64,000 nucleotides of DNA from Bacteroidales bacterium (GTDB taxonomy: Bacteria > Bacteroidota > Bacteroidia > Bacteroidales > F082): positions 62,001 to 126,000 of the forward strand of contig JAQVLA010000003.1 of assembly GCA_028704385.1 (NCBI GenBank), read 5' to 3'. Below, piece by piece: positions 49,367-64,000 of the stretch. The notes below the pieces were generated by a model. It searched no databases, had not been told where the DNA came from, and saw only the letters and a program-made list of their open reading frames with translations. The translations under genes and the position numbers were made by a program. Position 1 is the stretch's first letter. Every line of letters begins with the position of its first letter.

Positions 49367-49999
49367 TTAATCAAATCTTTCCTCCTTTTCATCAATCTGA
49401 TTTGCGATCAAGTTAATCTGTATATAAATGGTATCGCTTACGATATAAGATTGGTCGCCTGTGCTGTGATTCTTCGACATGGCAAAAATCCCCCAATCGG
49501 TCCTGTCGAGGGTAATGCTGTCAGTTTTAGCTTCCAGCATGTTTTCGTCAACTCTTAGAAATGTCTGAAACTGAATACATGCCGGAATGTTTCGCAAGGT
49601 GAGGTCGCCTCTCAATAGCAAACTGTCTTGAGCGATTTTTTCGGAGCAACACAAATTAAAATAGCTTAATGGAAATTTAGCTGCATGTAAAAGCTCACGC
49701 GATTTGATGGTATTCTCCAATACTGCCCGCATCAAATCATAGTCGATATCCGTATTTTTTATGCTATCCATCTCTATCGCAAAACTCGCCTCTACCATTT
49801 CTTCCTCAGAAAATCCCAAAGTACCAGACTTAAATTTTGTTGTTCCCCGGTGATTATCGGCCCTCCAATTCAGGATACTTTTGCCAACATCCAGCTTATA
49901 AATAATGGTGTCAGCCTTTGATTGGGCAAAACTATCCATTGAAAGGTTAAAACCTATGAGCGTCAGAAGAAAAGATATTTTAAGTTTCAATTTCCTCAT
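49367..49999 (-). CDS. YceI family protein
   Basis: This 210-residue protein has a signal peptide (about 1-25, ending SFAQ) and a YceI-type lipocalin-like beta-barrel. Visible blocks are YKLDVGKSILNWRADNHRGT, SGTLGFSEEEMVEASFAIEM and LRGDLTLRNIPACIQFQTFL, followed by TLDRTDWGIF. YceI proteins bind isoprenoid lipids such as polyprenols or quinones in the periplasm. It is the last gene of the nos transcript and overlaps the stop/start junction with the pentapeptide gene by one base. A role with quinones in N2O respiration would be inference. Confidence 0.82.
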   Translation of the reverse strand: MRKLKLKISFLLTLIGFNLSMDSFAQSKADTIIYKLDVGKSILNWRADNHRGTTKFKSGTLGFSEEEMVEASFAIEMDSIKNTDIDYDLMRAVLENTIKSRELLHAAKFPLSYFNLCCSEKIAQDSLLLRGDLTLRNIPACIQFQTFLRVDENMLEAKTDSITLDRTDWGIFAMSKNHSTGDQSYIVSDTIYIQINLIANQIDEKEERFD

Positions 50000-50922
50000 T
50001 AATAATCATTTACGCTAAAAACAACTCCGGTTGCTTTACCATTTTCATCCATAAAAGGAATCAATTCATCCGGAATATTAATGGCTCCTGTGAAATCGGT
50101 ATCTACCAGTTCGGCAGCAAAAAAGCTTGCTCCTTTCAGGTCGGCTCCCCTGAAACTGGCTTCCTGAAGATGAGCTCCCTTAAAACTTACACCATGAAGC
50201 CGGCCATGAACAAAGCTGCATTCTTCCAGTCCGGCACCCGTAAAATCAGAATAGCTGTAATCGGCCGAATCGAATCTTGAACCGGCAAAAACTGTGATGA
50301 TAAACTTAACTTTTATGGCTTTGCTGTTCGAAAAATCAGCATCTGTAAGTTCTGATTCCTTCATCAAAGCATTCGAAAAATCAGCATATCTGAACGAAGA
50401 ACGATGGCCTTTGACGCCAAACATATTAGAACCTCTGAAATCGGAAGAGTCCAGAACCGACTCATTCATGGAAGTGCGAAACAAGATGGCCTGAGCAAAA
50501 TTGCACCGTTTCATGGCAGCATTGTTAAAAGACGACCATCTGAGATCTGCCAATCGAAAATCACCCTTCGAAAAATCAGTCCGGTTAGCATTCGCTGTGC
50601 GAAAACTTACCCCTCTGAAATCACCAAATTGTACTGATCTGTCCTGCCACTGCACCCCATCGAGATTCATAAACCTGAAATCGTCATAATCCTGTGGAAC
50701 AGCTTCGATTCCTTTGCTGCGTATTTTTCCATCCGCAAGAATGACTTCTTCATTGATTAACTTAATCCGATATGCCTGATCGGTGGATGTGGGTAAGGGC
50801 AACAACTTTGATGTATCCGAAAGTTTTGGGAATAATTCTTTATGCACACTTTCAGCAGAATGACTACTGCATCCCGCAAATGCAAGTGAAAGGAAAAGCA
50901 TAAAAACAGCAATGTATTTCAT
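49999..50922 (-). CDS. Pentapeptide-repeat lipoprotein in the nos cluster
   Basis: This 307-residue protein has a lipobox at Cys18 (AFAGCSS) and about 30 tandem pentapeptide repeats from residue 80 to 285, for example FRLADLRWSSFNNAAMKRCN and FKGAHLQEASFRGADLKGAS. These fold as a right-handed quadrilateral beta-helix. It ends with a short domain INIPDELIPFMDENGKATGV. It would sit in the periplasm, anchored to a membrane. It starts immediately at the nosY stop (one-base overlap), so it belongs to the nos transcript, yet it is not among the classical nos genes. Function unknown. Confidence 0.85.
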   Translation of the reverse strand: MKYIAVFMLFLSLAFAGCSSHSAESVHKELFPKLSDTSKLLPLPTSTDQAYRIKLINEEVILADGKIRSKGIEAVPQDYDDFRFMNLDGVQWQDRSVQFGDFRGVSFRTANANRTDFSKGDFRLADLRWSSFNNAAMKRCNFAQAILFRTSMNESVLDSSDFRGSNMFGVKGHRSSFRYADFSNALMKESELTDADFSNSKAIKVKFIITVFAGSRFDSADYSYSDFTGAGLEECSFVHGRLHGVSFKGAHLQEASFRGADLKGASFFAAELVDTDFTGAINIPDELIPFMDENGKATGVVFSVNDY

Positions 50923-51806
50923 CAGATGATGTCCCTTGTTTTGAAAAAGTAATTGCCAAACCAGCCAAACAATGCCCCCAAAATAATCGGATAGGCAATG
51001 GCAAATATAATAAACCAGCCTCTGCTCACGGTATCAAGGATAAAATAAGAAGCAGCCCCCATCACTGTGAGCTCAGGATCGAAGAGCACCAGCACAGCTG
51101 TTCGAAAAACCTGGAGTGGATTGATCATTCCAAGGCCAATTACCGTTCCGGCATCCAGCCGCAATTTCAGCAACAATCCCATCAGGATCAAATCCAGAAA
51201 AGCAACCAGCAACAACCACAATATAAAAGCTGTGCTGATAGCCAGGTCTTGCGAATGTGATACAGCCGATATGAACATGCTGATTCCCAAAAAACAAAAA
51301 ATCATAGAGGCAAGCAAAGCACTATAGAGTGCAAACAAATCCCAGGGCACATCAAGCTTCGTAAAATTACCATAAACCGCAGCCCCGAGCAAAGCGATAA
51401 AAACCGGAATATAAGTCACCAAAAATTTAGCACTGAACTTGCCCCAGAAGTAGCCTGAAAATGAAACCGGAAGCGAAAGCATGTATTCCATCACATTCGA
51501 TTCGCGATCGCCCACAACGGATCTCACCGTGGTAATCAACACGTAGATGGGCAAAATTACCATGCTCACCTGCATAAAGGTTACCATCAGCCGGCTGAGG
51601 CCAACAAATCCGATAATCTGAGATTCTGTTATCCCTGTAGAAAACATCACAGCCACAAAGCCACCAAATAAAATGCTGTAGGTCCAAAACCATTTAGATC
51701 GCAGGTTTTGCCTTATATCTGCATTCATAATCTGGATGAGGCTGGAATGGGTAAAAAGTGTACGTTGCATAGTTTCCAGTTCTTGTAAGTTACCAAACCG
51801 ATTCAT
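50922..51806 (-). CDS. nosY: NosY-like ABC transporter permease
   Basis: This 294-residue permease has six predicted transmembrane helices and the ABC-2 fold. The phrase VGDRESNVMEYMLSLPVSFS is the typical cytoplasmic coupling region of NosY. With NosF it forms the transporter that, with NosD and NosL, is needed to assemble the CuZ centre of N2O reductase, supplying copper and sulfur. It overlaps nosL by four bases (ATGA). An internal Met at 51770 is a possible alternative start. Confidence 0.9.
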   Translation of the reverse strand: MNRFGNLQELETMQRTLFTHSSLIQIMNADIRQNLRSKWFWTYSILFGGFVAVMFSTGITESQIIGFVGLSRLMVTFMQVSMVILPIYVLITTVRSVVGDRESNVMEYMLSLPVSFSGYFWGKFSAKFLVTYIPVFIALLGAAVYGNFTKLDVPWDLFALYSALLASMIFCFLGISMFISAVSHSQDLAISTAFILWLLLVAFLDLILMGLLLKLRLDAGTVIGLGMINPLQVFRTAVLVLFDPELTVMGAASYFILDTVSRGWFIIFAIAYPIILGALFGWFGNYFFKTRDII

Positions 51807-52273
51807 TCGTGATGGAGCATTTTTTTCTTCTTCAGGAAGTCTTCGCGCATGCTAAGGCCGTCGCGAATACGCTGGGCCGTAGTTGTAAAATCAAAAGCTC
51901 CTTCCGAATATTCTTTATAGGCTGCATAACCATAGCCCATCGGAGTGTCGATACCATAAACATACCAGGCTTCTTCCACTCTGATCCAATCTCCTGAAGA
52001 TGCATCAGCGATATAGGATACCGCCTCATCGCCGCCAAATTTTTCCCAGTCAGGGCTGGCCATATATTCTATCAAACAGCCCAAATCGTCATACCAAACC
52101 ACCTCATTTCGCATATTGATGGACTGTGCCGAAAATTTAGCGTCAGCCAATCCCATCAGACAGGTGACGCAAATATCACGGTCAAAATTAATTTCGCGCG
52201 GGCTTTGGTCCACTTTTCTGACGCAAAACGTCATGGTAAGCAAAGCCAGAAATAATATTATCATTCGTTTCAT
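51803..52273 (-). CDS. nosL: Copper chaperone lipoprotein NosL
   Basis: This 156-residue lipoprotein has a lipobox at Cys17 (LTMTFC) and the NosL copper motif CVTCLM (Cys35, Cys38, Met40). The remainder follows the NosL pattern, including VVWYDDLGCLIEYMASPDW and TPMGYGYAAY. NosL delivers Cu(I) to NosD/NosFY for building CuZ and CuA of N2O reductase. It lies 4 bases after nosF and overlaps nosY. Confidence 0.93.
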   Translation of the reverse strand: MKRMIILFLALLTMTFCVRKVDQSPREINFDRDICVTCLMGLADAKFSAQSINMRNEVVWYDDLGCLIEYMASPDWEKFGGDEAVSYIADASSGDWIRVEEAWYVYGIDTPMGYGYAAYKEYSEGAFDFTTTAQRIRDGLSMREDFLKKKKMLHHE

Positions 52274-52277
52274 AACA

Positions 52278-52946
52278 TCAGGTATTAGTCAATGATTTAT
52301 CTAAAACAATTTTACCCAGATCCATTTCAATCACGCGATTTACAAGATCTTTGATCTCGTCCATCCGGTGACTGCTCAAAATCATCAGGGTATCTTTGCT
52401 GTAATTTTTAAGCAGTGCAAAAAGAATCTCACGGGCTTGTGGATCCAGGTTAGCCGAAGGCTCGTCGAGCAACAGGATTTTAACCTGCCTGCCAAGCGCA
52501 AAACTTATCAGCAGTTTTTGTTTCATACCACCCGACAGCTTATAGAATGGCTTATGTAAATTTTGATCGATTTCAAGTCCAAGCTTACTGCTGATATTTT
52601 TGAAAGCAGCGGCATCTGTTTTGGTAATGCGTTCAAAAAAATGAATTAACTCATTCACCGTCAGCTTAATTGGAGGCGGTGTTTGTGGTACAAAACCGAT
52701 CTGCTGCAAAATTTCTCTGCGATCCTTTCTGGGGTTGAGCCCAAAGACATCCAGCTTTCCTTCAAAGTTATATTGCCCTAATATACAGCGGATTAAAGTT
52801 GTTTTGCCAGCACCATTCTGTCCAATAAGTGCAATACGCTGATCAGACATTAAATCCACCGACAAGGCATCAATCACCAGTTGTTGCTTGAAGCTCTTGG
52901 AAAGCTTTTCGATTTTTACAAAAGTTTTATTTAGTTGTTGAGTCAT
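52278..52946 (-). CDS. nosF: ABC transporter ATP-binding protein NosF
   Basis: This 222-residue ATPase has Walker A GQNGAGKTT, Q-loop FVPQTPPPIK, signature LSGGMKQKLLISFAL and Walker B ILLLDEPSANLDP. It energises NosY in assembly of the CuZ site. ATG 52946 is chosen: the frame extends to 53027, but that part runs back into nosH and is Cys-rich nonsense by comparison. It lies 14 bases after the nosH stop. Confidence 0.92.
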   Translation of the reverse strand: MTQQLNKTFVKIEKLSKSFKQQLVIDALSVDLMSDQRIALIGQNGAGKTTLIRCILGQYNFEGKLDVFGLNPRKDRREILQQIGFVPQTPPPIKLTVNELIHFFERITKTDAAAFKNISSKLGLEIDQNLHKPFYKLSGGMKQKLLISFALGRQVKILLLDEPSANLDPQAREILFALLKNYSKDTLMILSSHRMDEIKDLVNRVIEMDLGKIVLDKSLTNT

Positions 52947-52960
52947 ATTTTGCTTTCTTT

Positions 52961-53908
52961 TTACAAGAGAGAAGAAGCTCCTCTCACAGCATACGTTAAA
53001 GCATTGCCGGGGCAAACATCCACACACAAGCCACAGCGTGTGCAGTCAGATCCCACATAATGAACATCCTGTGTTGCAGCACCTCGTTTAACAAACCACA
53101 ATTCGTGTGGCACCAGGCACACTTTCTGGCATTCAAGGCAATAGCCACATTTGTCGTGTTCAAATTTAATTGCCAGAGGTGAAGCTTTACCTACCAGACT
53201 CCATGTTGCTCCAATCGGACAAACATACCGACACCAAAACCGACGGCTTACGAACACTTCGAAAAGAATGATGGCAAGCACCCACAACAGTAGCAGGCTT
53301 GGACCATAAATCATTGCTTTTGAAACTATTCCAACGACATTAAGATTCTCGAAGACAAGATTCCGGGTAAGCACGGCCAGCAGCAGAAATCCAACAAGGA
53401 ATACAAAACGCAATCCAATATGATAACTTCTCTCTTTGATTTTTTTCTTCTTTACCAAATAATTATGCACTTTCTCAGCCCATTCGGCCAAAAAATGATA
53501 CGGACACATCCAGGAACAATACGAGCGGCCACCAAAAATCAACCAGAAGATTAAAATGGTGAACAAGCCAATCCAGAAGTTCATGGTAAGCATGGCCAGG
53601 TATCCCGTTGTGGATGATATTGCCAACAATTGTAGCGAGTTATACGGATCCATCAGGTAAAAACCAATCAATCTGGAACCGCTCAGCGAACCTTCCAGTA
53701 TGGCCAGATCGAGCCAGTATGAGAACACAAAAAGCAGGTTCATAAACAGCAGCACTGCCCAACGTATGTTGCGCATTTTGTGATTCTTTTTTCTGGAGTC
53801 GCGCCAATCTTTAAAACTCAGTCCGGCCAGCGTATGCGGCATTTGTTCGACCGTTTTTGGAGCAAGCGGACTTTTTTTCTTAGCGTTGGAAAAATAATCT
53901 GATAACAT
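52961..53908 (-). CDS. nosH: NosH/NapH-like membrane ferredoxin (menaquinol dehydrogenase subunit)
   Basis: This 315-residue protein has about four to five transmembrane helices with two CxxxCP motifs at their cytoplasmic ends, in YCSWMCPYHFLAEW and WCRYVCPIGATW. Two 4Fe-4S motifs follow, CGYCLECQKVC and CTRCGLCVDVCPG. With NosG it matches the menaquinol dehydrogenase proposed for clade II nos clusters (as NapGH in nitrate reduction), feeding electrons to cytochromes and NosZ. No nosR, the clade I electron donor, is visible. Confidence 0.92.
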   Translation of the reverse strand: MLSDYFSNAKKKSPLAPKTVEQMPHTLAGLSFKDWRDSRKKNHKMRNIRWAVLLFMNLLFVFSYWLDLAILEGSLSGSRLIGFYLMDPYNSLQLLAISSTTGYLAMLTMNFWIGLFTILIFWLIFGGRSYCSWMCPYHFLAEWAEKVHNYLVKKKKIKERSYHIGLRFVFLVGFLLLAVLTRNLVFENLNVVGIVSKAMIYGPSLLLLWVLAIILFEVFVSRRFWCRYVCPIGATWSLVGKASPLAIKFEHDKCGYCLECQKVCLVPHELWFVKRGAATQDVHYVGSDCTRCGLCVDVCPGNALTYAVRGASSLL

Positions 53909-53919
53909 GGCCTCTGAGT

Positions 53920-54735
53920 TTAAAATGGTTCAACAACGATACTGGGTTGGGCTGTAGGGCAAACCATCTGGCAAACACCACAACCGGTGCAGCCATCAAG
54001 CACATGCGGAATGAGTTTTCTTCCGCTTCGGCTTCTACGCTGGATGATAGCTTTTTCCCCGATCGGACATTCGGTGATACACAAATCACAAACCTCCCGA
54101 TCGAAAATCCTGTCTTTCAGCGGGCTGGCAGAAACCTCATTTTTCCCAGGAGAACGATGTACTCCTTTAAAATCAGTACCCCGCGGATTGCCTTTGAAGC
54201 CTTCTCCTTTGTGTGCCAGACAAGTATTTCTGTTCACGTGTGCTTTGCCCATTCGAACAGCCTCTTTCATAGCTACCTTTTGTACCTCAAAAGGATTTAC
54301 AGTGGAAAGATCAGCCCCGGGTTCGGTGGCTGCCTTTTCAACCGCACGCACACCTTCTTCCTTAAAAGGCCTGAAATCAAGTACTGCAGTAGGACAGGTT
54401 TCTACACACTGCAGGGCATCACACGAAAAGTCGCAAGCCTGAATCCGGGGGGCAATGTAAGGTGTACCAAAACCAAGCCCCTCCCCTGCACCCGCCAGTT
54501 CGATGGCATGAACCGGACATATCTGAACACACAGTCCGCATTTAATGCAGCCATACAAAAAGTCCTCTTCGGAAATGGCTCCGGGCGGCCTCAGAAAATC
54601 TTCGCGCGGCATTGACTTTGCTGCACTTTTATCGAGAATAAAAGTGGCAGTTCCTACCACTGCCAGAGTACCTGCAGCGGCAATACCACCTTTGAAAAAC
54701 TCCCGACGATTCAGGTTCTTTTTTTCTTTGTCCAT
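53920..54735 (-). CDS. nosG: NosG/NapG-like periplasmic ferredoxin
   Basis: This 271-residue protein has a twin-arginine signal (NRREFFKGG, 9-17) and four 4Fe-4S cluster motifs. They include CIKCGLCVQICPVHAIE, CDALQCVETCPTAVL, CDLCITECPIGE and CTGCGVCQMVCPTAQP. It is the periplasmic partner of NosH in electron transfer from menaquinol. It is followed at 11 bases by nosH. The gene lies 66 bases after the TonB receptor gene with no exact promoter match between them. Confidence 0.92.
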   Translation of the reverse strand: MDKEKKNLNRREFFKGGIAAAGTLAVVGTATFILDKSAAKSMPREDFLRPPGAISEEDFLYGCIKCGLCVQICPVHAIELAGAGEGLGFGTPYIAPRIQACDFSCDALQCVETCPTAVLDFRPFKEEGVRAVEKAATEPGADLSTVNPFEVQKVAMKEAVRMGKAHVNRNTCLAHKGEGFKGNPRGTDFKGVHRSPGKNEVSASPLKDRIFDREVCDLCITECPIGEKAIIQRRSRSGRKLIPHVLDGCTGCGVCQMVCPTAQPSIVVEPF

Positions 54736-54801: not shown

Positions 54802-56871
54802 TCAGAATGAATATTTTAATCCAATATTAAAACTCCGTCCAGGTTCATAGTACAAGCTCTGGATATCCATTCCTTTATAAGCCCTGCTCAGATGTTCAAC
54901 ATAGTTTTTGTTAAAGATATTTCGTACGCTGAACATGATATCCAGTGCGCCAAAAGCCTTGTAATCAGCATAAAAATCAAACACTGCAAAACCAGGCGTG
55001 CGGGATTCATTAAAGGAAGCAGCCACACGATCCTGTTCATCAACAATGCGTCCGTGAATCTCTGCATTAAACAACTCGGCATGATAGGCCAGAGCGGTTT
55101 GAAAAGTAAGTGGTGTGATTTCTGCCAGAGGCTCATCCCAGCTTACATTCTGCCCATAAGTGTAGGATGCAGAAAGATTATAATGCCAGTTGTCGGCAAA
55201 TTTCCAATCAAATCCAGCTTCAAATCCTGTGAGGAAAACCTCATCCACATTTCTGAACTGCTTGGTAAATTTGGGATCCTGACAGGCGTTATATATCCTT
55301 GGAATTGTGGTATCAACCGCTGCAGTGATATAATCCTGCACATAAGAATAGAAGACATCCGTAAAAATTGTTAATCCTTTGATATTCTTCTCGATACGTG
55401 CATCAATCTGATAATTTACTTCCGATTTCAGCTCAGGATTTCCGAGATACTCATACGCATCCATTCCTACACTCAGGTGATTGATAAACAATTCAGTAAG
55501 CTCCGGAGAACGTGTAGCTCTTGCTGCAGCAACATAAAGATTATATCCTTTTGGTAAAAACCAAGTAATTGATGTGGTAGCTGAAATATCGAAACGATCT
55601 TCAGGTTGAATGTCGTTATTGTATTGTTCCAAAAATCCCGCATCCGGATCCTTGATGCCATAACTTATGTAATCGGACCTTATACCCAGTGTCCAAACGA
55701 GATGCTCGTTGATATCACGCTTATTCTCGAGGAACAATCCCAAATCGTCATGATTGGAGTCCTGCCAGGTTTTATCATAGAAATATTTTGGAGGATCAAA
55801 CTCCATACCAGTGCAGGTATTCTTAAAAACCAGCCGGTCTCTTCCTCCGTCTTTACCAATATGTTTATAATCAATTCCTGCATAAAGCAAATTATTGGAA
55901 GCCGTTTGCAAGCCAAACTCTGTTCTTCCTCCAAATACCTGGGCAGTAACAGGCGAAACAGCGTGCACAGCTTTGTATGCAGGCCTTAGCGTATTACTCA
56001 TTTCATGATCTACATAACTTCCATACGCTTTGATCTTAAATGATTTGAGCAAAGGGCTGATATTGGTGTAAGCATAATCCATCGAAAGCATACTGCTATT
56101 GTCTTTATCGGCATCCATTGGGAGACCGGCATAAAGCACATCTTTGGCCATACTTTGACGCCAGGTTAGCTGAAGACGTTGGCTTTGCGTAAACTGATAC
56201 CCCATTTTCATGGCGTAGCCAAAACGCGAAAAGGAAGAAGCAATCTCCTGACCAGATCCGCTTTCGTAATTGCCATAATCCTTATAACCGGCATTGAGCG
56301 AAAAGTCGAATTTCTTCAAGACGCTTTGCACAAACAAATTACTGTAAAGATTGCCTCCATTCGACTGATATCCGGCTTCCAGGCTTCCGGCAACTTTTTG
56401 ATCTATCGAGCGATCCGGCTTGCGGTTTACGATATTGATTATACCACCCAGCGATGCACCATACCTGACGCTAAAAGGCCCTTTGATTACTTCTATTTTT
56501 TCGATCTCCTCAGGGGCAACCTGCGCAATCGTTGGATCCATGCGGTTCGGACAAGCATTGGTGCTGTGAACACCTCCATCAATCAGTACATTCAACTGAC
56601 TGTATTTGAAACCGCGCAAAACAGGTTCCATGCCGTAATTGCCACGTTTTTCAACGCCAAAACCAGCCTGGTTGATAAACATAGCTCCGCCGTCATGCGG
56701 ATTTTCGACCTGAATAATGCGGCCGGCAATATTTGATTTTGTTAAATTGAGTGTGCTCCTTCCGGTGACCAGAATTTCTTCGAGGACCAGCGTATCTGAT
56801 TGAGCATAAGATACGGTTGCCAGTGCTAATATCGCAGCTGACAGAATTATTTTTGTTATAGTTTGATACAT
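54802..56871 (-). CDS. TonB-dependent receptor, NosA/OprC-like (copper uptake)
   Basis: This 689-residue outer membrane receptor has a signal peptide (about 1-23, ending SYAQ), a plug domain and a barrel ending FNIGLKYSF. The plug includes STNACPNRMDPTIAQVAPEE followed by IEKIEVIKGPFSVRYG, a block shared with the copper receptors NosA and OprC. It lacks an N-terminal carboxypeptidase-like repeat. In a nos cluster it probably brings in copper for the reductase. ATG 56871 is used; the longer frame starts with TTG 56895. TonB-ExbBD genes are not in the window. Confidence 0.85.
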   Translation of the reverse strand: MYQTITKIILSAAILALATVSYAQSDTLVLEEILVTGRSTLNLTKSNIAGRIIQVENPHDGGAMFINQAGFGVEKRGNYGMEPVLRGFKYSQLNVLIDGGVHSTNACPNRMDPTIAQVAPEEIEKIEVIKGPFSVRYGASLGGIINIVNRKPDRSIDQKVAGSLEAGYQSNGGNLYSNLFVQSVLKKFDFSLNAGYKDYGNYESGSGQEIASSFSRFGYAMKMGYQFTQSQRLQLTWRQSMAKDVLYAGLPMDADKDNSSMLSMDYAYTNISPLLKSFKIKAYGSYVDHEMSNTLRPAYKAVHAVSPVTAQVFGGRTEFGLQTASNNLLYAGIDYKHIGKDGGRDRLVFKNTCTGMEFDPPKYFYDKTWQDSNHDDLGLFLENKRDINEHLVWTLGIRSDYISYGIKDPDAGFLEQYNNDIQPEDRFDISATTSITWFLPKGYNLYVAAARATRSPELTELFINHLSVGMDAYEYLGNPELKSEVNYQIDARIEKNIKGLTIFTDVFYSYVQDYITAAVDTTIPRIYNACQDPKFTKQFRNVDEVFLTGFEAGFDWKFADNWHYNLSASYTYGQNVSWDEPLAEITPLTFQTALAYHAELFNAEIHGRIVDEQDRVAASFNESRTPGFAVFDFYADYKAFGALDIMFSVRNIFNKNYVEHLSRAYKGMDIQSLYYEPGRSFNIGLKYSF

Positions 56872-56944
56872 GGTCGTAACTTTTTTGTGAAACAATTGGA
56901 ACCTAAATCAAGGTAAAACTGTCGGAAACAGACAAATTGCTGTT

Positions 56945-57352
56945 TTAGGAAAAAGTTACTTTTGGAGGGGGTGTGTTTACTTTTTTGGGATAAAAAATCA
57001 AATTGGTCGCATAATGGAAATACTTAGCTTCTAAAACTGTTGAAATTATTGCATTACAATTCGTTTCAACCGGTAAATAAACCATACCGGTATGACTTAT
57101 GGTTGTTTCAGGTATTTCTGCGTTGGTTTTTTCTTCCTTATTTTGATCGTCACCAGCCCTTTTTATCAAAGCAGATAAATAGGTGATATCGCCGGTTTGT
57201 GGCCTTTTATCATCATTTGAAAAATTCAAAACCTGTGTTGATTGCTCCAAACCTGCTATCAGATACAGATACCGCCATATTTGCACTTCCGGCAATACGA
57301 TAAATGCCAGATGAAGTGCAAGCAGCAAAGAAGCAATCACACGGTACTTCAT
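56945..57352 (-). CDS. Small protein of unknown function in the nos cluster
   Basis: This 135-residue protein has an N-terminal signal or anchor segment (about 5-22) and a polar middle rich in charged residues (about 45-90). The C-terminus has aromatic residues and prolines (YFHYATNLIFYPKKVNTPPP). I do not recognise a family. It is translated from the nosD transcript, overlapping nosD by four bases (ATGA), and comes just before the TonB receptor. Short orphan proteins of this kind often accompany metal receptors in Bacteroidota, which is recollection and not shown here. Confidence 0.6.
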   Translation of the reverse strand: MKYRVIASLLLALHLAFIVLPEVQIWRYLYLIAGLEQSTQVLNFSNDDKRPQTGDITYLSALIKRAGDDQNKEEKTNAEIPETTISHTGMVYLPVETNCNAIISTVLEAKYFHYATNLIFYPKKVNTPPPKVTFS

Positions 57353-58662
57353 AATTGATCCTTCATTTTTTTGTCTAATTCTTCATCCCACTTAAAGATG
57401 GGAGTTTTATCACGCAACACCAACTTCGGTTGCGAAAAAGGTGCCAGGCGTTCAAGAAAATCCAGCACCAGCAAGAGCGGAGACCCATAAAAAAACTTCA
57501 AATCCCGATCGAATGACCAGAGGTGTTCCACATAGGCAAATAAGGTATAAGGAGCATCCCCAATATTGTCACCATCCTTGTCAAAACCCTGATAATCATC
57601 AAAATAATTCTCTTGCCAACGGTTCAAATTAGCCGTTTTTCCTTCTGCTTCAACCTGAACCAGGTTGTTATGAAAATAATTATGCTTGTAGAGGTTACCT
57701 TCCTGGTTGGTATGGAACTTAATCCCCACTCCACAAAAAGCTATTTCGTTGTACATCACTGTGTTCGTCTTTTCAGGAACAAATGGAGAAACATCCACAT
57801 GAATACCTTCGGAAGAATAGATAAAACGGTTATGCAAAATTTGGTTGGAAGAAGTTTCTTTCATGCCGAGGCACATCCCACTCACGCCATTCGAATGCAT
57901 GATGGTATTGCCCGTCATCACAGTCATTTCGCTATACATCAGGAAAACTCCAACAGAGTTTTCGTAAAAATAATTGTCGTTGATCCTGTTATTGTGCGCA
58001 TACATAAAGTGGATGCTGTAACGGTTTCCGACACCTTTGTTGGCTTCAAAAGTGTTTTCGGAAGAATACCAAACCACCATATCGCGCACATTGTGCCAAA
58101 AATTTCCTTTGATGAGGTTGTTTTTTGAATACCACAGCCTGATGGCATCGCCTTTGAGTGCCATGCTGCGTTTTGAAAGAGAAGTGATTTCGTTGTACTC
58201 GATCAGATTATGCTCCGACTGAAAAATATCCACTCCAAACAGACATTCCTCAATCAGACAATTGCTTACAACATTATGATTTCCAATTATTTTAACACCA
58301 CAGTCGATTTTATCATGCGAGCCCCCTGATTCGATAATGTGTAGGTTTTTGAGCACTACATTGTCAGTCTCCAAAAAAATTACCGATGACTTACCCAGAC
58401 CCGAAATCGTTACTTTCCCTTCGCCATCAAGTGTAATAGCGTTTCGTGTAATTTTTACAGGGCCGGTATAAAATCCAGGCTCAAGAACGACATATTTTCC
58501 GGGAGGTGTGCGATCAATGATTTCCTGAAGCGGAATAGGATTGCTTCTATCCGGGTAGCCTCCAATTTTAAGGGCTGGCCCAAACTGCATTCCCTCCTGA
58601 GCCAGCAACGGCATCAAAAGTGAAACAAAAAATAATCCTGTTAATAATGCTAGCTTTTTCAT
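57349..58662 (-). CDS. nosD: NosD: N2O reductase maturation protein (right-handed beta-helix)
   Basis: This 437-residue periplasmic protein has a signal peptide (about 1-21) and parallel beta-helix repeats (NosD/CASH type), such as GVKIIGNHNVVSNCLIEECL and FGVDIFQSEHNLIEYNEIT. The ending FWGSP is replaced by FFYGSPLLLVLDFLERLAPF, the usual C-terminal NosD block. NosD assists NosFY in CuZ centre assembly. A terminator-like hairpin lies just before its start (58665-58699), so its expression may be lower than that of the genes upstream. Confidence 0.94.
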   Translation of the reverse strand: MKKLALLTGLFFVSLLMPLLAQEGMQFGPALKIGGYPDRSNPIPLQEIIDRTPPGKYVVLEPGFYTGPVKITRNAITLDGEGKVTISGLGKSSVIFLETDNVVLKNLHIIESGGSHDKIDCGVKIIGNHNVVSNCLIEECLFGVDIFQSEHNLIEYNEITSLSKRSMALKGDAIRLWYSKNNLIKGNFWHNVRDMVVWYSSENTFEANKGVGNRYSIHFMYAHNNRINDNYFYENSVGVFLMYSEMTVMTGNTIMHSNGVSGMCLGMKETSSNQILHNRFIYSSEGIHVDVSPFVPEKTNTVMYNEIAFCGVGIKFHTNQEGNLYKHNYFHNNLVQVEAEGKTANLNRWQENYFDDYQGFDKDGDNIGDAPYTLFAYVEHLWSFDRDLKFFYGSPLLLVLDFLERLAPFSQPKLVLRDKTPIFKWDEELDKKMKDQL

Positions 58663-58707: not shown

Positions 58708-59487
58708 TTATTCTGTTCGTAACGATTTACGTTTTAAAAGAATGGCAAGTATCATGAAGACAAATGCAGCCAATGCGATATAAAAACCGTAATAAGGATA
58801 AGATTCGGTAGTAAACTGGGCAACTTTTCCTTCACCAAATACGGTTGGCATAAAAGGTTTGATACCGGCAAAAGCCCCTCCCCCATGTAATCCCAGATTA
58901 TGACCATACCAATAAAGGTAATAGATATACACAAACAGGAAATAGAAAGGCACTAAAGCAGGGATCAATCCGGACACCAGATTAAGCTTTTTGGGTGTTG
59001 CCACGAAATACAAACCCAATAAAACAAATACCACAAAGATATAAGGTGAATTCACCATTATGAAATTCAAGGTTTTCAAGGATTGTGGTGTTACGTCCAC
59101 TTTGATTTTTTGTCCTGTTGCCGGATCATAAACATCATGACCTTCTGCGTCGCGCTGGGTGTCAAATACATAAAAACTTGGATGTTCCATTGATGGCGGA
59201 TCATTCCTACCCTGCACAATGGGATACATACCAATATAATGGTTTATTGCATTCATCTCCATCAGGCAATCAGCACCTTCGTTTGTTGCCAGTTCTTCTC
59301 TTTCCTTTACTCCTTCGCAGCCATTATAAACCCCATTAAACTTAAAATTGATACGGATTCCTTTGGGATACATTGTTTTGGGATATTGAATACTCTGTAA
59401 TGCTACACCCCAAATTGGTGCGAAATAGGTTAAGCTGACAAAAATGAGACCAATGATTGCAAAAATGATATATGTCTTTGACTTCAT
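58708..59487 (-). CDS. Membrane protein of the nos cluster (NosB-like position)
   Basis: This 259-residue protein has an N-terminal transmembrane helix (about 7-27), a periplasmic domain of about 115 residues with two cysteines (YNGCEGVKE and GADCLMEMN), and about four C-terminal helices. In clade II nos clusters a membrane protein called NosB lies between nosZ and nosD, the same position as here. The sequence alone does not prove homology. It may take part in electron flow or maturation of NosZ. It lies 18 bases after the cytochrome c gene. Confidence 0.72.
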   Translation of the reverse strand: MKSKTYIIFAIIGLIFVSLTYFAPIWGVALQSIQYPKTMYPKGIRINFKFNGVYNGCEGVKEREELATNEGADCLMEMNAINHYIGMYPIVQGRNDPPSMEHPSFYVFDTQRDAEGHDVYDPATGQKIKVDVTPQSLKTLNFIMVNSPYIFVVFVLLGLYFVATPKKLNLVSGLIPALVPFYFLFVYIYYLYWYGHNLGLHGGGAFAGIKPFMPTVFGEGKVAQFTTESYPYYGFYIALAAFVFMILAILLKRKSLRTE

Positions 59488-59505: not shown

Positions 59506-59865
59506 TTATTGCTTTGGTTCTACACCAGCTTTACTAAACATAAAACTGATGGCATCGTACAGATCCTGTTCGGAGCAGTCCATACAGGTTCCTTTTTCGG
59601 GCATTACGCCATATTTTCCGGTATATCCGGAATTGGCATGTTGTACTAATGTAGTTAAACCTTTGGCAGCAAGTTCTTCCCATCGGGGAGTATTATCAAG
59701 TGCAGCAGCACCGGCAACACCTTTTAAATGGCAGGCAATGCAAGCCTTATTATAAATAGCTTCGCCATTGGCCAGATCAGCAGTTTTTCCACCACCTCCG
59801 CCACAGCTGCTAAGGGCTGCAACAAGAAGCAGTCCTCCAAAAAGAGCAATGAATTTTCTTTTCAT
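59506..59865 (-). CDS. Cytochrome c lipoprotein (c5-like), probable electron donor to N2O reductase
   Basis: This 119-residue lipoprotein has its lipobox at Cys21 (LSSCGGGGG) and one cytochrome c domain. The haem motif is CIACH (42-46), the axial Met is probably Met88 (YGVMPEKG), and a CMDC pair (94-97) recalls the disulfide of cytochrome c5. Its place directly after the NosZ genes matches the NosC cytochromes of clade II clusters. It has its own promoter element and follows a strong hairpin, so it heads a separate unit. Confidence 0.88.
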   Translation of the reverse strand: MKRKFIALFGGLLLVAALSSCGGGGGKTADLANGEAIYNKACIACHLKGVAGAAALDNTPRWEELAAKGLTTLVQHANSGYTGKYGVMPEKGTCMDCSEQDLYDAISFMFSKAGVEPKQ

Positions 59866-59961: not shown

Positions 59962-62346
59962 CTATTGTTGCTCAGTTAAGTATTGATTAGTACGGAGTTT
60001 AAGGTAAGTAATAATTTTTGCAACATCCTTTTCAGATACATTCTGATTAGGCATGGCCAGTTTATAACGCTGACGCATGGCTTCAATATCAGCTTCATCA
60101 AAATGTTCTTCAGGATTCATGATCCAGGATTTTAGCCAGTCTTCAGTACGACGTTTGTCAACCATTAAAAGGTCTGGACCATTAAAGTCTTCTCCAAATT
60201 TATGACAAGCATTACATCCATAATTCAGGAATTCCATTTCGCCTTCGAGCAGGTTTTTCATTTCTATGGCAGATGGCTGGAAGGCCTGCATCTGCATATC
60301 TGCCTGAACACGTTTTGAATAGGCGAGTAAGCGTTCGCTTTCAGCTGCTTCATTATGTTTTACTGTCAGATAACCTTGCAAAATCCTGCCATCTGCACTA
60401 TGGTAATGATCAAGCAAAAGCGGATACATCCCTGCTCTTTCGGCTTTAAACTCAAGTGTAGCTGTTTCTCCGGGCCGCCAACGATACATCTGGTCGTAAG
60501 CAGCAATCTCATACACATAATGGTCAAGCTTGCTTTGTCCGTGATTGGTGATGTGTATCTCAACATCCTTTCCCTGATCGATTGAAATATTAGCCGGCTT
60601 CACTTTACCATCACTAATGGTTGCATATACATGAACTTTGCCTCCTTTGGTTTCGGTACGTTCAGCACCCAACTCCGTGAAATAGGGAGATTTTTCCATG
60701 GTGTAAATATTGGTTCCGGTGGGATAAGTATCAACTGATTCGAAATGATCGTCGCTGATAAGTGCAGTATAGTGAGGCTCGCCCATCGGGATTGGCAGAT
60801 CATAAAGGATTGTCATCTTATCTGCATCAATATCAATCAACTGATGGTTTTGCGGGTGTAAGGGTCCAACAGGATTAAAACGGTCGATGGAAAGTTTGTT
60901 AAGTGAAATCAGGTACTTGCCATGTGGATTTATAGCATCGCCATGAGCCGAAACAAGGTGGCCCACATTATAGTGTGAGGATACATAATCAAGCACTTTC
61001 AGGTTGATGTAATCCCATTTTGTAATACGCGAATCCACATAAATGGAGGTGTAAATCACGCCGGGTTCATCATCATATTGATTGTGCAAAGGTCCCAACC
61101 CAACTTCAACGCTTCCATGAAGTGCTGTTTCGAGTGAAATTATAGGCACACCAAATTCGTCGGTGCCTTCAAAGTTTTTCTCATTGATAGCCTTGGTGAT
61201 CTTCTCCCAGGAATAAACCCAGGCGTGTGAATCGAGTTTACCAGCTACAACAATATATTTTCCATCGGGACTAACATCCACACCATGAGGTGATTTAGGT
61301 TCAGGGATCAGGAAGAAAATATTGTTTTCAACTGCTACATCTATCGGGATAACCCTGTGGCCATTGATGACTGTATATTTACCCTGTTTCACTAACTGTT
61401 CAGCCATTTTCCAGTTTACGACATGCAGGTAGTCAACATCGCGCGATGAGCAACCAGCCTCGAAAGGCGGACGGCCACTTTCGATACCACCATAATACAT
61501 CTCTGTACAGAAAGAGTTAGTAAACGACCAGCCATCACTGGCATTCTTGCCCATATCAGTTAAGTCCTGTGTATAAGGAGGAAACTCGATAGTGAAGGAT
61601 TTATCTTCCTCAATACGACCAACTTCTTTATCAAATTTCCAATAGGTCAATCCGCCACGCCAATATTTTCTGAAGTTCTTTTCGGTAAGCGGATAATAGT
61701 TGCGATCCAAAGGAGCCGGATATTGGCTAGCCTCACCAATATACTCTGAATTTGGTGTAAAAAAGCAACCACCGTGATTACTCCTAAAGATAGGATTAAC
61801 AACAGTTTGTTTGAGTTCCCAGTCTTTGAGTGAGATAACAAAAACACGTGGGTTGGCTTTGTCGTTAATGGCAGCCCATTTTCCATCGTAGTTTCCATCA
61901 GTTTCCGAAAAACCCGGATGGTGGGTATCCCCCCAATCGATTACCTGTCCGTCGATATAGCCCGACCTTAACACTTCAGAGCTTTCTTTGCTATAGCCAA
62001 ATCCATTTACAGGCTGTCTTGAAGAAGTAGGCACATATTTTACTATTCGCATAGAAGGCACTGCGTACATAATCATGTTACCAGCTTGTCCTCCTGAGTT
62101 TAGTGCAATATACTCATCCTTCAGGTTATCAGGGGTATAGGTTTTAGCAGCAGCCAGAACATCATCTGCATTTAAGCCGCGGCGCTTTACAATGTCGTTT
62201 AATGACTCATTGCCATTTGGCGCTCCTGTATCGCCGGATTTTGATTTGTCTCCGCCAGTGCCACAGGCTGTCATCAGAGCCATAGCAGCTATGACCATAA
62301 CTGTCATCAGAAGACCAGGAGTGTTGAATAGATTATATTTTTTCAT
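59962..62346 (-). CDS. nosZ: NosZ-like N2O reductase lipoprotein with CuZ ligands and cytochrome c domain but no CuA site (NosZ-A)
   Basis: This 794-residue protein has a lipobox at Cys28 (LMTACGT) and a seven-bladed NosZ propeller (about 70-545). All seven CuZ histidines are visible by motif: His142-143 (GDTHHP), His191 (SNHG), His354 (SPHGVDVSPDGKY), His421 (GPLH), His463 (VGH) and His525 (GEPH). The cupredoxin domain (about 560-665) keeps His609 but an ungapped comparison with the neighbouring NosZ-B shows the CuA ligands changed: Cys to Leu645, Cys to His649, His to Gly653, Met to Leu656. A C-terminal cytochrome c domain follows (CNACH 711-715, Met765). It starts 30 bases after NosZ-B with no promoter between them. 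It should be the catalytic half of a two-gene enzyme. Confidence 0.9.
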   Translation of the reverse strand: MKKYNLFNTPGLLMTVMVIAAMALMTACGTGGDKSKSGDTGAPNGNESLNDIVKRRGLNADDVLAAAKTYTPDNLKDEYIALNSGGQAGNMIMYAVPSMRIVKYVPTSSRQPVNGFGYSKESSEVLRSGYIDGQVIDWGDTHHPGFSETDGNYDGKWAAINDKANPRVFVISLKDWELKQTVVNPIFRSNHGGCFFTPNSEYIGEASQYPAPLDRNYYPLTEKNFRKYWRGGLTYWKFDKEVGRIEEDKSFTIEFPPYTQDLTDMGKNASDGWSFTNSFCTEMYYGGIESGRPPFEAGCSSRDVDYLHVVNWKMAEQLVKQGKYTVINGHRVIPIDVAVENNIFFLIPEPKSPHGVDVSPDGKYIVVAGKLDSHAWVYSWEKITKAINEKNFEGTDEFGVPIISLETALHGSVEVGLGPLHNQYDDEPGVIYTSIYVDSRITKWDYINLKVLDYVSSHYNVGHLVSAHGDAINPHGKYLISLNKLSIDRFNPVGPLHPQNHQLIDIDADKMTILYDLPIPMGEPHYTALISDDHFESVDTYPTGTNIYTMEKSPYFTELGAERTETKGGKVHVYATISDGKVKPANISIDQGKDVEIHITNHGQSKLDHYVYEIAAYDQMYRWRPGETATLEFKAERAGMYPLLLDHYHSADGRILQGYLTVKHNEAAESERLLAYSKRVQADMQMQAFQPSAIEMKNLLEGEMEFLNYGCNACHKFGEDFNGPDLLMVDKRRTEDWLKSWIMNPEEHFDEADIEAMRQRYKLAMPNQNVSEKDVAKIITYLKLRTNQYLTEQQ

Positions 62347-62376
62347 AACACAAAATTTCTTGGTGATTAATTATGA

Positions 62377-64000
62377 TTACATGCTGATCTGTTCAGACAA
62401 CAACTTCTTGGCTCTCAAACCCACGTCGGCAGTTTTCACTTGATATTGCCAATACTGTTCGGCCCACAGGAAAGCATCTTTCCATTTGCCTTCGGCTGCA
62501 TACCTTTCGTAATTGGCTTTTGAAGTTTTGGCCAGTTCCAATTGATCCAATGCATCCACCACAAGTGCTTCAACATAAGGATATTTTTGGTAATCATTTT
62601 CTTTCAGATAAGTTACCACACTGTTGATAACATCCTGGGTTTCGTTGATTACAACAATCTTATCTTCATAATTTTTCTTATACTCAGCCAATTGTTCCTG
62701 AGTTAGTTCAATTTCGCCGATATCTTCACCTGAAGCTACATAACCTTTAGGTCTTACCAAAAGAATACCTTCCATCTCGAGGTGAAGCGCTGAACAGAAT
62801 TCCGTACAGTAGTAAGGAAAAACACCAGATCTGTCAGCAGTAAAGGTGAGTGAAGCAGTTTTTCCGGGCTCGAAACTGCCATGCACACCATAAGTTGAAA
62901 CCGTGAATCCATGTGTTTCATCTTCGGCACGTTCCAGGTTTGTCAAATGGAAAGTAACGATATCGCCTTCTTCTACTTCAACGATTTCGGGCGTGATATG
63001 CGAACGTATCAGGGTTCCAAAAATGTGAACACGATTACCCTCACGTTCGATTTTCTCCTGACCGGCAACGGTTTTGAACCTCGAAATTTCACCAGTACGG
63101 GTATTGGTTCCCAATGGATAACGGATGATCGGCTTGATGGTTGTGCGCAACACGCTGACCGATCCATACATATTTGCCTGTGGTATTGTCATCGTATAGA
63201 TATCACGCATTTTATCCGAAGAAATATCGATCAAATGATTATAACTCGGACGAGTTGGCCCTGTGTTGAGCATATTGTCGTACAAACCTTCCTTGTCCAC
63301 CACCGTCAAATAATTTGAATGAGGCTCAACTGAATTTCCCTGTGGCGTCATTAAATGACCGGGTTTGAAACTCAAGTCGAATGTTTCATCCAGAGCCAAA
63401 GTTTCATAGTTCCAGCGAACCAGCTTTTTGTCGTTATATACTGAAGAGTAAACCATGTTTTCGCGAAAATCGAAAGCCAGATCAACGACTTTATTGCCTA
63501 ATTCAACTTGTCCGTACAACAAATCAGTTGTAATTAACTTTGGAACACCAAGCACATCCCCTGAAAAAGCCTGTTGATCTAAAGCAGCTTTAACTTTTTC
63601 AAAGTCAAACACATAAGCCGTATTAGATGCTGTAATAAAATATTTACTTGTGGGATCTACCTTCACACTCATCGCCGACTGTTCTATTGGAATAAGTGCA
63701 AAAACGCCAGCCTGTCTGGCATCGGTGAAAGGAATAACCTCAAATTCATTAACACTTTGTTTTTTAAGCGTTTGAACTTTTAAATAATCATAAACATATA
63801 CAAAATGCTGATTTTGATAGCTGGCCAAACCAACCAGTAAACCATGACCGGCCAAGCGTCCGGCATCAAAATATCCAAGTGTAAAGGGAGGAAGTTCGAT
63901 TGTAAAAGACTCTTCCTTGATCATACGCCCCACATGGTGACCAGTTCCGGCTGCATCGTCCGTATCTTCAAACTTCCAGGCTGTGATACCAGACTTAAAT
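62377..64000 (-). CDS. nosZ: NosZ-like protein with intact CuA site but lost CuZ histidines (NosZ-B, 5' end outside window)
   Basis: The frame is open to the right edge, where it reads FKSGITAWKFEDTDDAAGTG, so the N-terminus is missing. The visible part aligns with NosZ-A throughout. The CuA site is complete: His in ETHGF, then Cys (62805-62807), Cys (62794-62796), His (62782-62784) and Met (62773-62775) in YYCTEFCSALHLEM. CuZ histidines are replaced by Met (63670-63672), Asp (63481-63483) and Tyr (63166-63168); the one in KPGH is kept. The other three lie beyond the edge. A helical C-terminal extension of about 120 residues follows the cupredoxin domain. It is probably an electron-entry partner of NosZ-A. 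Confidence 0.88.
   Translation of the reverse strand, partial: FKSGITAWKFEDTDDAAGTGHHVGRMIKEESFTIELPPFTLGYFDAGRLAGHGLLVGLASYQNQHFVYVYDYLKVQTLKKQSVNEFEVIPFTDARQAGVFALIPIEQSAMSVKVDPTSKYFITASNTAYVFDFEKVKAALDQQAFSGDVLGVPKLITTDLLYGQVELGNKVVDLAFDFRENMVYSSVYNDKKLVRWNYETLALDETFDLSFKPGHLMTPQGNSVEPHSNYLTVVDKEGLYDNMLNTGPTRPSYNHLIDISSDKMRDIYTMTIPQANMYGSVSVLRTTIKPIIRYPLGTNTRTGEISRFKTVAGQEKIEREGNRVHIFGTLIRSHITPEIVEVEEGDIVTFHLTNLERAEDETHGFTVSTYGVHGSFEPGKTASLTFTADRSGVFPYYCTEFCSALHLEMEGILLVRPKGYVASGEDIGEIELTQEQLAEYKKNYEDKIVVINETQDVINSVVTYLKENDYQKYPYVEALVVDALDQLELAKTSKANYERYAAEGKWKDAFLWAEQYWQYQVKTADVGLRAKKLLSEQISM

Follow-up and report, generated by a model that had tools for sequence, protein, structure and literature searches.

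Paired nosZ genes and their copper ligands

At one end of a 64,000-nucleotide stretch of DNA from a Bacteroidales bacterium (hereafter, the window; G000:C39:62001-126000, host genome of 3.46 Mb in 58 contigs) lie two adjacent genes for relatives of NosZ, the nitrous oxide (N2O) reductase. This enzyme is the main known biological N2O sink and is known as a homodimer with two copper sites, CuA and CuZ, in each chain; in the canonical head-to-tail dimer, the CuA of one chain and the CuZ of the other form a joint active site. The two genes, which encode the proteins denoted here NosZ-A and NosZ-B (A and B for short), are both on the minus strand, with B upstream of A, 30 bases separating the stop codon of B from the start codon of A, and the upstream end of B extending past the window edge (Table 1).

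We scored five side-chain ligands for CuA (H, C, C, H, M) and seven histidines for CuZ. In the alignment, NosZ-A retains all seven CuZ histidines (residues 142, 143, 191, 354, 421, 463, and 525), in agreement with the first-pass annotation of the window, whereas the CuA side-chain positions are occupied by Tyr, Leu, His, Gly, and Leu, so that both bridging cysteines and all other side-chain ligands are missing (0/5); the loss of four of these ligands had been noticed from the window, and the fifth (His579, Marinobacter nauticus numbering) is lost as well. NosZ-B shows the opposite pattern. Its CuA set, already judged complete from the partial gene, is intact in the full-length protein (H572, C607, C611, H615, and M618, with E609 at the backbone ligand), and its CuZ positions hold Arg, Phe, Tyr, Met, Asp, His, and Tyr, that is, a single histidine out of seven. 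Three of these substitutions had been reported; the sequence beyond position 64000, far from restoring ligands, adds the loss of the three N-terminal ones, for a total of six. Thus, neither polypeptide combines the two copper sites. Because the replacement of a single CuZ histidine by Ala abolishes metalation at six of the seven ligand positions (PMC11573801), B proteins, with six or all seven of these histidines gone, should not hold CuZ.

The division is universal among the sufficiently complete copies from relatives, which we identified by searches at the family, order, and phylum levels as well as in GTDB genomes, the counts for the latter referring to the matches listed. Classification of the copies that cover all ligand positions, duplicate records of the same genomes included, assigned 66 proteins to A, 80 to B, and 59 to canonical NosZ, leaving none for a further class. 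All 66 A proteins combine seven CuZ histidines with none of the five CuA ligands; all 80 B proteins possess the five CuA ligands, along with no CuZ histidine (62 proteins) or one (18 proteins). A fragmentary B outside this set (G018, split over L069 and L038) retains two. Given that every copy in both sets conforms, the reciprocal pattern, which the first-pass annotation had described for a single pair, is not a product of chance or misalignment. After near-identical copies were collapsed (53 A and 62 B), the residues that replace the CuZ ligands in B turned out to be conserved themselves: Arg in 60/62, and Asp and Tyr in 62/62 each. Proteins from the phylum that were considered as possible intermediates between the pair and canonical NosZ (L163-L181) are all canonical.

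The pair is found in Bacteroidales, Flavobacteriales, Saprospiraceae, and records named Melioribacteraceae or Chlorobiota; the named bearers, all of them metagenome-assembled genomes (MAGs), are uncultured Bacteroidales, Lentimicrobiaceae, Lutibacter, other Flavobacteriaceae, Saprospiraceae, Melioribacteraceae, and 'Chlorobiota'. The searches at the order and phylum levels scored only two candidates from each genome, so that the co-occurrence counts are restricted to the family search: there, 33 of the 173 genomes contain a NosZ match, namely, the tandem pair in 27, a single canonical NosZ in 6, and both in none. One of the assemblies, G008, consists of a single contig and contains the pair only. 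A and B stand in tandem, in the order B-A, at all loci with room on the contig, as expected of the obligate pair that the first-pass annotation had envisaged, and the intact canonical nosZ that would have spoken against its proposal was found neither in the host genome, searched by individual gene families, nor in any of the 27 pair-bearing genomes of the family.

Architecture, operon, and ancestry of the pair

NosZ-A consists of a lipoprotein-type signal with an invariant Cys, the CuZ propeller, a cupredoxin domain without CuA ligands, and a C-terminal monohaem cytochrome c domain (C711xxC714H715, Met765). NosZ-B combines an ordinary Sec signal, a propeller without CuZ, and the intact CuA cupredoxin domain; it has no haem, and where A carries the cytochrome domain, B keeps the helical tail of the ancestral type, as in long canonical NosZ. 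Both match solved NosZ proteins in sequence with E-values of 1e-43 to 1e-57, and the best PDB matches of both structural models are N2O reductases, in keeping with the propeller and cupredoxin fold; in the AlphaFold model, most of the B propeller is of high confidence (the modelled chain is the B protein of L073, 88% identical). Against TIGR04246, the family of Sec-dependent NosZ, with a cut-off of 625, A scores 684 and B 469; against NF052460, the clade III L-NosZ, both fall below the cut-off of 700 (116 and 86, respectively).

The haem appears to be a general trait of A: a CxxCH motif after residue 600 is present in 65 of the 66 listed A proteins, the exception, L105, probably being cut by a contig end, and in none of the canonical NosZ examined. 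In one A from Flavobacteriaceae (L087:2999-5707), the protein's own haem domain is followed by a second cytochrome c, a homologue of the product of the small gene directly downstream of NosZ-A in the window. Several other A copies are about 900 residues long (L088, L092-L094, L096, L097, L116, L118, and L142) and lack a separate cytochrome gene, and these are probably fused to a second cytochrome c as well. In the Flavobacteriaceae loci of the operon comparison, no separate copy was found after A. This absence, along with the fusion in L087, links the small cytochrome c to the enzyme.

The surroundings of the pair are those of a clade II nos operon, with nosD, nosG/H-like genes, nosF, nosL, nosY, and cytochrome c (Table 1). 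In the operons of long canonical NosZ, the gene order after nosZ is the same (membrane protein, nosD, nosG, nosH, nosF, nosL, nosY), and the pair takes the place of the single NosZ in the related proteobacterial operon. The membrane protein has no match in Pfam or NCBIfam; it adjoins nosZ both in pair operons and in proteobacterial clade II operons (30-92% identity).

Table 1. The nosZ pair and adjoining genes of the nos operon, in window coordinates
Feature	Position	Strand	Basis or remark
NosZ-A, 794 aa	59962-62346	minus	reading frame and ligand alignment
NosZ-B, 749 aa	62377-64626 (window-equivalent; G000:C39:124377-126626)	minus	window holds only 62377-64000
Small lipoprotein cytochrome c, directly downstream of NosZ-A	59506-59865	minus	
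Membrane protein, putatively in the NosB-like position	58708-59487	minus	place in operon conserved
NosD (CuZ maturation)	57349-58662	minus	TIGR04247 above cut-off
NosG-type 4Fe-4S protein	53920-54735	minus	Fer4 domains; name from operon context
NosH-type membrane 4Fe-4S protein	52961-53908	minus	name from operon context
NosF-type ABC ATPase	52278-53027	minus	name from operon context
NosL copper chaperone	51803-52273	minus	PF05573 above cut-off
NosY-type ABC permease	50922-51806	minus	name from operon context

Several further genes accompany the operon. A small, fast-evolving reading frame after nosD (56945-57352; 27-87% identity) is present in many pair operons. Between nosD and nosG, there is a gene for a TonB-dependent receptor (54802-56895), possibly an outer-membrane copper receptor, and none was found at this place in the Flavobacteriaceae operons of the comparison. 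Directly after nosY follows a pentapeptide-repeat lipoprotein-like protein (49999-50922). Elsewhere in the host genome, on another contig, a nirK-type copper nitrite reductase scores above the cut-off (G000:C47:39028-39912); a search of this genome for cytochrome cd1 gave no match.

In a tree of NosZ proteins from which the ligand columns were excluded, A and B each form one clade (Shimodaira-Hasegawa-like approximate likelihood ratio support of 100 for each), and both fall beside long canonical NosZ from Proteobacteria and Myxococcota, at a distance from the short canonical type found in other Bacteroidota. The branching order of A, B, and long canonical NosZ is less certain (support 90). Judging from these sequence comparisons, A and B are both derivatives of an ordinary two-site NosZ, and the patchy spread over several classes suggests that the operon was transferred as a unit. 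As expected for genes that are inherited together, the distances among A and among B proteins correlate (r = 0.89 for 48 distinct pairs, above all 2000 permutations).

The two proteins changed in opposite halves. In the propeller, the mean identity to long canonical NosZ is 58.5% for A and 38.5% for B, and in the cupredoxin domain, it is 68.3% for B and 32.5% for A; therefore, each of the two has relaxed where the other is conserved. All domains are, nevertheless, under purifying selection. The median pairwise ratios of nonsynonymous to synonymous substitution rates (dN/dS) are 0.14 for the propeller, 0.24 for the dead cupredoxin domain, and 0.16 for the cytochrome domain of A, and 0.20 for the dead propeller, 0.05 for the CuA cupredoxin domain, and 0.19 for the tail of B. 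The halves without copper ligands are thus constrained as a structural partner would be. The first-pass annotation had named patternless variation of the replaced residues as the mark of decay, and what we find is a conserved Arg/Asp/Tyr set and dN/dS far below 1 in every domain.

The putative A/B enzyme and its alternatives

The strongest indirect evidence for a heterodimer comes from one-sided conservation of inter-chain residues. In M. nauticus NosZ, F617 and the gate residue M623 of the CuA domain, together with E488 and K450 of the propeller, are inter-chain residues, with a Ca2+ loop (E260, D274) serving as the clamp between the propeller and the cupredoxin domain of the partner chain (PMC11573801). 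We mapped these residues, in the numbering of that work, onto the alignment of the 53 A and 62 B proteins. On the propeller side, E488, E260, and D274 are retained in 53/53 A proteins; all 62 B proteins have Asn in place of E488 and a gap at the E260 position, and D274 is replaced in B as well. On the CuA side, F617 and the gate position 623 (Leu, as in long canonical NosZ) are kept in 62/62 B proteins and lost or variable in A, and the W616 position is Glu in 62/62 B proteins, a residue that A has lost. With the exception of the lysine K450, then, the residues for a contact between CuA of B and CuZ of A have been retained and those for the reverse contact lost, which supports the geometry proposed in the first-pass annotation.

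Taken together, these observations make it very probable that A and B constitute an obligate N2O reductase in which A carries a c-type haem and a single live site joins CuA of B to CuZ of A. An ordinary clade II (Sec-type) two-site NosZ would have been duplicated, with subsequent complementary loss, so that A and B would now function only together. The A/B pair would contain one live contact, that of the CuA cupredoxin domain of B with the CuZ propeller of A, and the opposite contact, between the dead cupredoxin domain of A and the dead propeller of B, would be structural. Electrons might pass from the operon cytochrome c to the haem of A, then to CuA of B, and on to CuZ of A, where N2O would be reduced to N2.

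Several points weigh against this scenario. The conduit lysine K450 (Lys484 of A) is kept in A and B alike and thus does not discriminate between the two contacts. The model of B alone fits NosZ chains only with a different placement of the domains (root-mean-square deviation of about 13), a fit from which we draw no conclusion, and a fused model, in which the cupredoxin domain and tail of B are joined to A through read-through of the two in-frame stops that separate the genes, is of moderate confidence (predicted local distance difference test, 75; predicted template modelling score, 0.59). Furthermore, the haem of A itself makes an electron route without CuA conceivable, and the reduction of N2O by the bearers is a prediction, as is the binding of A to B. 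That the two form one enzyme is a strong inference, not a demonstration, and the same holds for the physical association of A with B, the stoichiometry and copper occupancy of the assembly, its activity, and the route of the electrons.

The alternative that fares best is a refinement of the A/B enzyme rather than its opposite, namely, an A2B2 or higher assembly in which the CuA(B)-CuZ(A) contacts are canonical and a second interface has a role in gating, membrane anchoring, or regulation. The conservation of both dead modules and of the residues that replace the CuZ ligands in B (Arg, Asp, Tyr), as well as the combination of a lipoprotein signal on A with a plain Sec signal on B, would fit such an assembly, but an A/B dimer is simpler, and we regard the larger complex as possible, though rather unlikely. 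Considerably more doubtful is an A/A homodimer whose fused cytochrome c takes over from CuA as the direct electron donor to CuZ, with B as a separate soluble CuA electron carrier or copper donor that docks transiently. The haem motif characteristic of A, the second cytochrome c in L087, and the constraint on the retained cupredoxin domain of A would all fit this arrangement. However, B preserves exactly those residues that face the CuZ of the partner in the canonical dimer (F617 and the gate residue), A preserves the Ca2+ clamp that holds the cupredoxin domain of a partner, and the full-length B propeller, needless in a free carrier, is under purifying selection. Decay of one or both genes after the pair lost its function, which the many lost ligands might bring to mind, is refuted by the low median dN/dS in all domains (0.05 to 0.24), the frames that stay open across classes, the conserved operon, and the reciprocal pattern that holds without exception.

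Known systems and implications

The closest known relatives of the A/B pair are clade II NosZ proteins (TIGR04246), in particular, the long single NosZ of Sulfuricella, Denitromonas, tubeworm symbionts, and Myxococcota. These are homologous to A and B over the whole length and share the propeller and cupredoxin fold, the operon order after nosZ, and, with B, the helical C-terminal tail, but they carry both copper sites in one chain, whereas A has lost CuA and carries a C-terminal cytochrome c, and B has lost CuZ. The NosZ of Wolinella also has a C-terminal cytochrome c domain, as does A, where the domain is monohaem, but Wolinella NosZ keeps CuA in the same chain. The clade III lactonase-type L-NosZ is only remotely similar to A and B, which score below the cut-off of that family. 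The nearest precedent in the literature searched comes from DPANN archaea, in which CuA-only NosZ-like proteins have been described, two of them with an upstream five-His protein, and the CuA-only genes failed to complement a nosZ mutant (PMC10936187). The suggestion made there resembles the A/B pair in placing CuA and a set of histidines on separate proteins (PMC10936187); however, the DPANN proteins are shorter and without CuZ, and the five-His companion is found in only two MAGs, whereas the partners described here are full-length NosZ paralogues within a nos operon. Dechloromonas aromatica likewise has two genes, nosZ1 and nosZ2, in one cluster, but these are reported to be identical, not complementary (PMC2907700). 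In a study of wastewater MAGs, genomes with two nosZ genes never have both within 45 genes of each other (PMC11409646). For the production of active N2O reductase in E. coli, a recombinant system is mentioned in PMC11573801.

The first-pass annotation knew of no NosZ in which the copper sites are divided in this manner, and we, too, found no description of such a heteromeric or split NosZ in the open-access literature; subscription papers and preprints lay outside the search, so priority is not certain. On balance, the pair seems likely to be the first example of a naturally heteromeric N2O reductase, an obligate enzyme whose only active site is built across two gene products and which has a wire from haem c of A via CuA of B to CuZ of A, present in several lineages of Bacteroidota and partly invisible to annotation as it stands. 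Indeed, A is annotated as a complete nosZ despite the absent CuA, and B falls below the family cut-off, so that automatic annotation names one half as the whole enzyme; primers directed at the 3' (CuA) and 5' (CuZ) regions could each detect a different one of the two genes for this enzyme. If the proposed arrangement is correct, the A/B enzyme would work with one active site instead of two, each copper site could be studied alone in its native partner, and the passage of electrons from the CuA of one chain to the CuZ of the other would become open to a direct test.

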